This document shows positions 8,112-12,705 of a stretch of DNA of 64,000 nucleotides, in pieces; the stretch's first letter is position 1, and each line of letters starts with the position of its first letter. The translations under genes and the position numbers were made by a program. The notes under the pieces are model-generated. The model had not been told where the DNA came from. It saw only the letters and a list, made by a program, of their open reading frames with translations, and did not search any database. The DNA comes from Symmetrospora coprosmae. Lineage: Eukaryota; Basidiomycota; Cystobasidiomycetes; Symmetrosporaceae. The stretch covers positions 41,914 through 105,913 of the forward strand of contig VUYT01000044.1 of NCBI GenBank assembly GCA_008802785.1. Direction: 5' to 3'.

Positions 8112-8449
8112 CTGTCGTTGTAGCTAGATGCAGAAGTGCCAGGTATGTGTAGCAACGAAGAAGCGTTCGCGCCTTCCTGAAGTGCCTGAAACGCGTTTTT
8201 TGTCGCGTGAGCAGTCCGACACATGACAGTCCGGACTGCATCGACACCCGAAGAGACTGCAGAGGACCAGGGGAATCTGCGAGCTCTTATAGCAATGAAG
8301 TGATGCTTCTGTGAGCTCTCCGCATCTGCTGCTCGGCCGCGCCGCCACCGAAAAAGTTGGGCATTTCTCCGTTTTTCGTGAAACTGCGGGAATCGCTCTA
8401 GAATCGCAAAAAGAAATTCTCGACATCCGGAGAGATGCAGGACACAGCT
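8112..8449. other. Intergenic between MSH6 3' end and tRNA-Leu 3' end
   Basis: This is the MSH6 downstream region. I see no conserved coding frame or repeat in it; it should hold the MSH6 polyadenylation site. Confidence 0.5.
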
Positions 8450-8457: not shown

Positions 8458-8635
8458 TGACGAGAAGGAGATTCGAACTCCTGCTCTTTCGAACCACGGA
8501 ATCACTGGTGTGATGTTGAATCAAGGGAGAACCTTAACGTGGCGCCTTAGACCGCTGTCGTTAGGGTGGGGCACAGGTCAGATACGCTAACCGGGGATAC
8601 TGATCGAAAAGGAGACGTACCTCGGCCATCTCGCC
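8458..8635 (-). tRNA. tRNA-Leu (anticodon AAG) with two introns, one in the D-loop
   Basis: The tRNA is read in three pieces: 8635-8621, 8554-8532 and 8499-8458 (80 nt in total). Piece 1 is GGCGAGA TG GCC GAG: acceptor 5' strand, D-stem and start of the D-loop. Piece 2 starts CGGTCTAAGGC and completes the D-arm; it then gives CCACG, TT, the anticodon AAG (8535-8533) and G37. Piece 3 gives base 38, CGTGG, an 11-nt variable arm, the T-arm AGGAG-TTCGAAT-CTCCT, the acceptor strand TCTCGTC and discriminator A. All stems pair: acceptor 7 bp with one G-U, D-stem 3 bp, anticodon stem 5 bp, T-stem 5 bp. The second intron (8531-8500, 32 nt) sits at the canonical position between bases 37 and 38. The first (8620-8555, 66 nt) interrupts the D-loop; it begins GTACGT, has CCCTAAC near its end and finishes in CAG, like a spliceosomal intron. 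A T7 terminator follows. Confidence 0.85.
8555..8620 (-). other. Intron-like insertion in the tRNA-Leu D-loop (GT...CTAAC...AG)
   Basis: These 66 nt separate tRNA bases 15 and 16. Ends are GTACGT and CGACAG, with a CTAAC branch-like motif whose A is 6 nt before the end. The motifs match the protein-gene introns in this window rather than a tRNA-endonuclease bulge-helix-bulge. Removing the 66 nt restores a standard leucine D-arm (TGGCCGAG followed by CGGTCTAAGG). The insertion also splits the internal A box. That it is removed by the spliceosome is inference. Confidence 0.75.
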
Positions 8636-8701: not shown

Positions 8702-10543
8702 CTATCGCGGGGCCTTCTTGGAGCGCTTGGCCTTGCTCTGCTCCGCCGCCTCCCGCTCTCGCTTCTTCTCGGCCATGAGTGCGCGGTGCTTAGCTGCAGC
8801 TGACTGCGTGTTCGCCGTCCATCGATCCTTGTTAACTGCGGCAATGTTGGAAGGCTGCTGCGGGATGGGGAGGGAGCTGGCCTTGAGGACTTCCTCCTCG
8901 GTAGCAGCCCTCCTGCTGACGCGCACATTCGAATGATTGGTGATGTTGGTGATCTTCCTGTTGGTGAGTCGCATAGAGTTGTGGCCATCCGGCTTCTCCT
9001 GGGGCCTCACGGCGGCGGCCTTTTGGTGCGGGGCAAGGCCACCGTAAACCTGAGAAGGCTCTCCGAGGAAGGCATCGTCGTGAGGACGGGGTAGAAGGTC
9101 GGTGAAGTTGGTGCGGTGGTAGCCGTAGGCAAGGTTTGCCATAGCGCAGCCTGGGAGTCCGCTCGCGTGTCCAAAGCGCGCTTCCCAGCCGGCTTTGTCG
9201 TCGTAGACAGGGAAACGGAGAAGGGCCCCGGTTTCATCGTCGACAGTAACAGACTCGACGCATAGCTGCAGCCAGAACGACAGAATATCGAGCTTCGAAT
9301 AGAGCGTCTTGAAGCCGGCGGCGTCAAAGTAGTTGATGTTGAAATGCTCCGCGCCTGTAAAGTCACCGAGCGCGATGCAAGCGGCTTCCAGGATGCTCCG
9401 GAACTCCTTGGGCCAAGACTCGTCGATTTTGACCAAGGCGAATTTGGTCCAGTTGACGAGGCTGTTCGCCTTCCGATCCTTGCCTGCGAAAGTGGGGAAA
9501 CCTGTCAGGCCGCGTACATTGTACTTCATGCCATGCGAGAGAGAGACGCGCGACCTACCGACGAACTCGCGGACGTAGTAGTTGACTCCTGTTGACTTCT
9601 CGTGCTCCTTCATTCGGCGCTTGAAGAGATCTGTGTACCCGAGATATCCCTTCTCCTTGTGTATACCGGGAGCGCGAAGCGCGTAGAAACCCGCGCTGTT
9701 TCCCGGGAAGCGTGACGAGCCGAAGCGGTGGCGCTTGCGAACAAAGGTGCGGAGCGCCACAGGCTTCCCGGACTGGGCCGAGCTGCGCGGGATGAATGCA
9801 ATCACCGTGATGAGACCGGAAGCAAATCAGCGCGGCTCGTCCCCCTAATTGTGTACTGGTGAGTTGCGAGCCTGATGAACACCTCTGCTATACACCTACC
9901 TGATGAAGTCATCCATCCAGTCTTTCTCCTGCATGAGGAGAACGGCCACAAGCACGTGGAAGTTCTGGAGACCAGGAAGCCCGCCCACAGCGGCAGAGAC
10001 GGCGGCAGACGGAAGATTGAGAGCCCATCGGGGCAGAGAAGATCTCGCTCTATCGATGTATCGAAGCAGCCCTTGGTCGCCGACGAGGCTGCGATGCAAC
10101 AGGCGTATTGTCAGCCAAAGTGTTTCCTCAGCGGCGAGAAGCCCAGCACAACGCACTGGAGCAAGGGATCCCGGTTGAATTGCATCTTGACGTACTCTCC
10201 GACGCAGAACAGCTGCGTGATGGACGTACTCTCGTCAGTGCGCGCCCGTCTGGACTAATGCTTTGCAGCCCACCTTCTCCATGTCAGCGGCAGTGAGTCC
10301 AACCGCCACGAGGACGCGCAGCAGCTCCTGGTCGAGTTCGTCGTCCGTCAAGCGGCGATGCGTGTGCCGAGCCTTGCGAGAGGTCTGACTGCCATGCTGA
10401 ATGTCGCCTTCAATGTCGGCCAACGCGTTGAGGAGCTCCTGGAACTGCCCAAGCTCCCGGAACGCCTGGGCCTCCATGGCTCGGATGACGCGCTCCTGCC
10501 AGCTGAGCGGCGCAGCTGGGGGCGTCTCTGCATTGTCAGACAT
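8702..10543 (-). CDS. GIY-YIG-like domain protein of unknown role
   Basis: The long exon (9782-8702) encodes GFYALR, then KGYLGYTDLFKRRMKEHEK, which resembles the GIY-YIG nuclease core (G[IF]Y...GYTD/GQT...R...H). The C-terminus is basic (KAKRSKKAPR), which suggests nuclear location. That exon has no in-frame ATG near its 5' end; only a GTG is open. I therefore join it, through a 117-nt intron (9899-9783) and a 45-nt intron (10273-10229), to the exon that begins MSDNAETPPAAPLSWQERV at 10543. Both junctions keep frame. The N-terminal part is helical, and MQEKDWMDDFI ends exon 2. The joined model is inferred: two separate genes are possible, and the 45-nt intron is short. I know no characterised protein of this architecture; the GIY-YIG assignment rests on motif spacing alone. 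Confidence 0.5.
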
Positions 10544-12552: not shown

Positions 12553-12705
12553 GGAGGAATGGCCGAGGTTTACCTCCTTTCAGTTCAGCATTCAGCAGCG
12601 GGCGTCGTCTAACCGTGTTCCTGCCCCCGACCACAGCGGTCTAAGGCGCCACGTTAAGGTTATCTTGATACAGCATCACAATAGTGAGCTCGAATGTCGT
12701 AGGGA
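12553..12705 (+). pseudogene. Degenerate tRNA-Leu(AAG) copy with a D-loop intron
   Basis: Bases 12553-12567 give GGAGGAA TG GCC GAG. After a 69-nt insertion (12568-12636), a block (12637-12659) identical over 23 nt to piece 2 of the tRNA at 8458-8635 completes the D-arm and anticodon arm with anticodon AAG. The insertion sits at exactly the same D-loop position and again begins with GT (GTTTAC), contains TCTAAC and ends CACAG. The next segment resembles the other gene's 32-nt anticodon intron (both contain CATCACA), but after it the T-arm and 3' acceptor strand cannot be found. The 3' strand of the anticodon stem (near CGTAGG) has a mismatch and no T-run follows. I read this as a 3'-decayed paralogue. 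A third intron hiding the T-arm was looked for within 250 bp and not found. Confidence 0.65.
12568..12636 (+). other. Second D-loop intron-like insertion (GT...CTAAC...AG)
   Basis: This is a 69-nt insertion at the same tRNA-Leu position as the 66-nt one at 8555-8620. The two share the GT/AG ends, a CTAAC motif and a short CTCCTTT segment near the 5' end, but are otherwise diverged. Conservation of the position while the interior has diverged suggests the insertion predates the duplication of the two loci. Confidence 0.65.

Follow-up and report, generated by a model that had tools for sequence, protein, structure and literature searches.

Probable spliceosomal introns in the nuclear tRNA genes of a basidiomycete

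In the classical scheme, nuclear tRNA introns occupy position 37/38, and a protein endonuclease and a ligase take them out. A tRNA-Leu(AAG) gene in the window (the whole 64,000-nt stretch of DNA analysed, located on contig C38 of a 20.05-Mb, 77-contig basidiomycete genome) carries an intron at that canonical site and, unlike it, an additional insert in the D-loop, at position 15/16. This raises the question of what the second insert is and how a mature tRNA could be made from such a gene. Our reading, to which we assign a probability of roughly 0.9, identifies the D-loop insert as a U2-type spliceosomal intron. Its host would be a nuclear tRNA gene of the Pol III type, and 21 tRNA genes would together hold at least 28 introns of this kind.

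A leucine tRNA gene with two inserts

Delineated from the sequence together with a cloverleaf scan and ARAGORN, the gene occupies 178 nt of the minus strand (8635-8458) and comprises three exons. Exon 1 (8635-8621, GGCGAGATGGCCGAG) extends from the 5′ strand of the acceptor stem to D-loop position 15, and is followed by the 66-nt insert of spliceosomal type (8620-8555), which reads GTACGT...CCCTAACGACAG with a GACAG end. Exon 2 (8554-8532) supplies the remainder of the D-arm and continues through the anticodon AAG to G37; beyond a 32-nt intron at the canonical 37/38 site (8531-8500, placed by ARAGORN and not of the GT-AG type), exon 3 (8499-8458) contains the 3′ strand of the anticodon arm, the variable arm, the T-arm, the 3′ strand of the acceptor and A73. 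This structure agrees with the first-pass annotation of the locus, which had proposed a D-arm made complete by removal of 66 nt, a separated 5′ piece pairing with the 3′ acceptor strand (7/7 acceptor pairs, one of them G-U) and a second, 32-nt intron after G37. Three registers of deletion of the D-loop insert leave an identical product, and a single one of them reads GT...AG. Flanking the gene are a T7 run (8456-8450, minus strand), a putative terminator of the Pol III type, and TATATAAA (8668-8661, minus strand), whose start lies 33 nt ahead of the mature 5′ end. The D-loop intron divides the A box.

When both inserts are removed, ARAGORN calls the resulting 80-nt RNA as tRNA-Leu(aag) with a score of 122.1 (class II, with a long variable arm), the outcome that a check on the insert-deleted sequence, suggested at first pass, was meant to find; with only the D-loop insert removed and the 37/38 intron left in, the score is 110.0 (introns allowed). 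If the D-loop insert is instead retained, ARAGORN calls no tRNA at this gene, and with introns allowed it returns a Thr(ggt) with a 109-nt intron, which we rejected as a false call. Across the window, ARAGORN with bacterial settings reports no tRNA and Rfam at gathering scores gives no hit. The cloverleaf score of the real gene is 30.8, and that of 100 shuffles with the acceptor ends held fixed is at most 23.7.

A second Leu(AAG) copy lies 4 kb away on the opposite strand (12553-12659, plus strand). It is diverged, retains its 5′ part only, with the 3′ half unrecognisable, and is probably a pseudogene, yet it has kept a 69-nt insert (12568-12636, GTTTAC...TCTAACC...CACAG) at the same D-loop position; its donor, GTTTAC, lacks G at +5, as expected of a dead copy. 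Alignment of the two inserts sets the CTAAC of this copy opposite CTGAC at 8581-8577 in the window gene, which is the likely branch site and has its A 23 nt short of the intron's 3′ end. The CCCTAAC noted at first pass is indeed present, but as a branch site its CTAAC (8564-8560) is the weaker candidate, since its A lies just 6 nt from that end.

Looking for the insertion in other Leu(AAG) genes, as had also been recommended, gave a divided answer: the second window copy has it, but a Leu(AAG) gene at C76:195131-195243 is uninterrupted, and differs from the window gene in acceptor and T-stem by compensated pairs (judged by eye). Because this uninterrupted gene exists, the need for a Leu(AAG) tRNA does not by itself exclude that the window gene is dead. 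As far as sequence features can tell, the intact cloverleaf, the terminator, the TATA element and the interrupted families in which no other gene was found argue against a dead gene.

Downstream of the window gene (8338-8397, minus strand) we also observed the motif AGCGATTCCYGCARTYTCACGA followed by an ACTTTT stretch. It recurs downstream of a Val(CAC) gene (locus L070, 448) and of a tRNA-like site (locus L042, 1376), and is possibly a dispersed element near tRNA genes. The tRNA-like site itself (C6:1287) has a perfect T-arm, CGGCGTTCGACTCGCCG, with TTTT nearby; the 800 nt upstream of it contain no acceptor partner that pairs fully and is followed by T8.

Interrupted tRNA genes across the genome

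Candidate genes were collected with T-arm patterns, the Rfam tRNA model RF00005 and one pattern for the initiator-Met anticodon arm. Contig C77 was excluded from all counts; it bears many mitochondrial-type tRNAs, including one with anticodon TCA (labelled SeC by ARAGORN), which suggests that TGA is read as Trp on that contig. Our parser fits a cloverleaf and allows each gene at most two GT-AG introns and, where needed, one at 37/38, GT and AG being the sole intron features imposed, and the cloverleaf scan, restricted to introns, scores the T-arm and acceptor as well.

After this procedure, 21 nuclear tRNA genes with GT-AG inserts, carrying 28 introns, were identified. One GT-AG intron each is present in the genes for Leu(AAG) (C38), Leu(UAG) (C44), Ala(UGC) (C7), Cys(GCA) (C2), Glu(UUC) (C16), Gln(CUG) (C33), Gly(UCC) (C49), Pro(UGG) (C8), Ala(AGC) (C65), Ile(AAU) (C14), Gly(CCC) (C74), Val(AAC) (C29), Thr(CGU) (C11) and Phe(GAA) (C44:23516-23650); the remaining seven genes carry two each, namely Ser(UGA) (C41), both Lys(CUU) genes (C3 and C65), Lys(UUU) (C39), both Asp(GUC) genes (C2 and C14) and initiator Met (C11; 59 and 63 nt), and six of these seven also have a 37/38 intron. 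The inserts fall in the D-loop, at other D-arm positions, at about 25/26, and in the anticodon arm, variable loop and T-arm. A short 37/38 intron is additionally found in 15 of the 21 genes (14 among the first 18, plus Thr), and the 14 in those 18 genes are 11-32 nt long and never GT-AG. Once the introns are removed, Ala(AGC) and Gly(UCC) each retain one mismatched stem pair. Two further candidates, at C20:230k (score 7.1) and at locus L098 (22.8), were rejected as tRNAs.

Uninterrupted nuclear genes number 19 (16 called by ARAGORN, Ser(CGA) from the scan, and Val(CAC) and Ala(AGC) recognised by eye among RF00005 matches), and about half of the nuclear tRNA genes found are interrupted, both counts being lower bounds, since 63 of the 188 RF00005 candidates were scored. 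His, Trp and elongator Met are among the isoacceptors not found in any form by the pattern, RF00005 (63/188 scored) and ARAGORN searches.

For Cys (1 gene), Asp (2), Lys (3), Glu (1), Pro (1) and initiator Met (1), every nuclear gene found in this possibly incomplete assembly is interrupted, and for this reason the inserts are probably removed. The initiator-Met gene was located without use of introns or the T-arm, and an exact-match search for its anticodon arm, GGGCTCATAACCC, gives a single occurrence genome-wide. When 11 joined mature tRNAs were used as queries, matches were obtained solely at the 11 interrupted loci, although this search would miss diverged genes, because it returned neither the Lys loci nor an uninterrupted Gln(CUG) gene at C33:103k.

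These observations bear on the view that insertions have turned the interrupted genes into pseudogenes, with the tRNAs supplied by other genes, some of them undetected. The degraded second Leu(AAG) copy fits this view, uninterrupted genes do stand alongside interrupted ones for Leu(AAG), Ile(AAU), Ala(AGC), Gln(CUG) and Phe(GAA), and diverged uninterrupted genes could escape the searches used; yet the six families listed above have only interrupted members, and the two Lys(CUU) genes are identical in their exons (73/73) though their introns match at just 39/69 and 53/72 positions. We consider it highly improbable that the set as a whole consists of pseudogenes. The spliced Ile sequence is likewise identical to its uninterrupted relative (75/75), with differing flanks. 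The Asp pair (exons 72/72, introns 59/63 and 57/61, upstream flank 91/101) carries little weight because it is a recent duplication. Duplication within the Asp and Lys(CUU) pairs accounts for four introns, which should not be counted as independent.

Splice signals and controls

That the D-loop insert is of spliceosomal type and the 37/38 intron of Sen type had been proposed from the window gene alone, and the proposal gains support from features of the 28 inserts in 21 genes that the parser does not impose. G occupies +5 in all 28 inserts (27/27, plus Phe), compared with 367 of 1723 (21%) in a shuffled control, and C or T occupies -3 in 26/28 (25/27; T in Phe); +3 is T in 8 of 27 introns. A CTRAY motif lies 12-30 nt from the 3′ end in 21/27 introns, the corresponding number in 5000 shuffles having a mean of 2.4 and a maximum of 8, and is absent from that interval in the other 6/27. 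Of the 21 introns with such a branch site, 19 end at the first AG that lies 6 nt or more past the branch A. Shared splice signals of this kind would be unexpected from random insertions into pseudogenes.

Insert length (58-106 nt, median 63, n = 27) resembles that of mRNA introns in the window, of which protein alignment with a GT-AG-only aligner gave eight of 61-100 nt, six in Hsp110 and two in CDS1, with donors GTGAGT, GTGAGC or GTGGGT in 6/8; a further, 54-nt CDS1 intron from the aligner was discarded as an artefact of a weakly conserved region. The best named relatives of Hsp110 are from Mixia (64%) and Microbotryum (62%), with unnamed proteins reaching 84%, and those of CDS1 are from Agaricomycetes and Tremellomycetes (e.g. 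Cyathus and Kwoniella, 63-67%); on these matches, placement of the fungus in Pucciniomycotina would be no more than a guess. The single U6 gene found (47 of 980 candidates scored; C22, locus L112, about 1425-1620) also has a GT-AG intron, AAAATTGG^GTTAGT...AATCAG^AACGATACAGAG, which we take to directly precede the ACAGAG box; this gene has an upstream TATA and lies less than 250 nt from a contig end bearing short tandem repeats. The one full-length 5S rRNA match is uninterrupted (47 of 1070 candidates scored).

Several controls address whether the parser would build cloverleaves from arbitrary sequence. In a first shuffle of 300 upstream sequences the maximum score was 21.9, and because only 24 of the 300 retained an acceptor partner, we added shuffles that kept it: among 1600 such shuffles of 16 genes with fixed acceptor ends none reached 28 (maximum 27.6), whereas the real genes score 28.3-33.3. 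Of 34 T-arm sites scanned, 20 score at least 28.5 (14 with GT-AG introns, 6 without), one scores 22.8 and 13 have no acceptor partner. When other dinucleotide pairs were allowed in place of GT-AG, for 16 of the 21 genes, GT-AG gave 28 or more in 16/16 and the next-best pair in 10/16, although in 4 of the 16 another pair gave a better cloverleaf than GT-AG, by a margin of up to 1.7.

Three parses involved a choice. For Glu we took the second-best (29.5, against 30.5) because with it the anticodon is UUC and the arm is of class I; for Gln the choice was between ties at 28.5, and for initiator Met between ties at 30.9, the discarded tie having A at +5. A single-deletion brute-force search over nine genes was set aside: it did not handle genes with two extra introns, and it failed to place the boundary of the Leu D-loop insert exactly because longer D-loops scored equally. 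An introner-like burst as a recent common source of the introns was also rejected, likeness between introns being confined to true duplicates.

Introns of the endonuclease type at ectopic sites, with a bulge-helix-bulge (BHB) cut by a relaxed Sen enzyme as in Cyanidioschyzon merolae and crenarchaea, would offer another route of removal. BHB introns are known at non-canonical positions such as 25/26, 45/46 and 53/54 (available text of PMC4090602), PF01974 domain matches occur in this genome at two loci, some introns form 3 or 4 central pairs in one register, and relaxed half-BHB forms may occur among them; set against this, a strict BHB, defined by a 4/4 central helix and 2/3 or more in each flank, is found in 0 of 24 introns over all equivalent registers, and a BHB gives no reason for the GT start, the +5 G in 28/28, the CTRAY or the YAG end. 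We regard endonuclease removal of these inserts as improbable, and prefer to read them as U2-type spliceosomal introns.

Transcription, processing and relation to known systems

The internal A and B boxes are interrupted by the introns of the D-arm and T-arm (in the Lys and initiator-Met genes both boxes are affected), and for this reason transcription would presumably start from an upstream TATA element. TATA or ATAT begins 25-50 nt upstream of 17 of 18 interrupted genes (Glu being the exception), of 9 of 15 uninterrupted genes and of 4.8% of random window points, the contrast between the first and last figures arguing further against pseudogenes; in Thr(CGU) the TATA-like element lies farther upstream than this interval. 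TTTT occurs within 25 nt downstream of 17/18 interrupted genes, although many of these genes were found with a pattern that itself contained TTTT.

If the inserts are spliceosomal, the tRNAs could also be made by Pol II, for instance within neighbouring transcripts, which would explain how they gain access to the spliceosome. The position of the window gene fits this: an open frame on the same strand (8702-9826) has its stop codon 66 nt ahead of the tRNA start. The TATA-like element in the -50 to -25 interval of 17/18 genes does not, nor does the downstream TTTT with the qualification just given, nor the upstream TATA of U6 in the same genome, and we judge a Pol II origin unlikely.

On the Pol III reading, the upstream TATA element would drive a precursor from which the spliceosome would excise the GT-AG introns, as suggested by their sequence features and the need for the tRNAs, and from which Sen endonuclease and tRNA ligase, the established pathway for 37/38 introns, would excise the canonical one. 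It is likely, judging from sequence, that spliceosomal introns have spread in this basidiomycete lineage to roughly one nuclear tRNA gene in two, the sole initiator-Met and Cys genes found being among them. All translation would then need both the spliceosome and Sen, and the broken A and B boxes would have given way to an upstream TATA promoter. Essential tRNAs, initiator Met among them, would require the spliceosome in addition to the Sen enzyme, and one precursor would pass through both splicing machines, a dual-mechanism pre-tRNA of which we found no description. Such genes make several questions testable: how Pol III transcripts gain access to the spliceosome, in which order the two splicing steps occur, how a tRNA gene functions with split A and B boxes, and whether reverse splicing spreads introns into non-coding RNA. 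There is also a practical consequence, in that standard finders miss essential tRNA genes in such genomes: among 42 genome-wide RF00005 rows only 5 of the 21 interrupted genes appear (Cys, Ala(AGC), Ile, Ala(UGC) and Phe), three of them below the cut-off.

The first-pass annotation knew of no described fungal case, and our literature search concurs: among the matches listed, titles and the starts of abstracts describe no spliceosomal introns in nuclear tRNA genes, with subscription papers and preprints mostly outside its coverage. The string "spliceosom" is absent from the available part of PMC4090602 and from the tRNAscan-SE 2.0 paper (PMC8450103), and the available part of PMC3978253 mentions spliceosomal introns once, in relation to protein genes.

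Among known systems, the canonical 37/38 Sen introns coexist with the GT-AG inserts here, in 15 of the 21 genes, and the inserts differ from them in position, length and signals. Ascomycete nuclear rDNA carries spliceosomal introns, which likewise interrupt a non-coding RNA, but one that is a Pol I rRNA and not a tRNA. Several introns per tRNA gene, in the D-, anticodon- and T-arms, occur in C. merolae, cryptomonad nucleomorphs and crenarchaea (PMC4090602, PMC3978253, PMC9602550), and in the portions of PMC4090602 and PMC3978253 available, non-canonical eukaryotic tRNA introns are described solely in algal nuclei and nucleomorphs. Multiple introns at such arm positions are common to those systems, as far as these portions describe them, and to this fungus; there, however, the introns are interpreted as substrates of a BHB endonuclease or, for nucleomorphs, are given no mechanism, whereas here they show GT-AG ends, +5 G, a branch site and YAG, with no strict BHB. 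The closest parallel is the mRNA-type intron in the U6 gene of S. pombe and others, which is thought to have arisen by reverse splicing (available part of PMC10484740), and gain by the same route may account for the tRNA introns. Like the tRNA inserts, U6 introns are GT-AG spliceosomal introns in Pol III RNA genes; U6 is itself a part of the spliceosome, whereas the hosts here are at least 21 tRNA genes. In themselves the introns would be ordinary spliceosomal introns, with U6 as precedent; viewed as tRNA introns, they would constitute a separate class.
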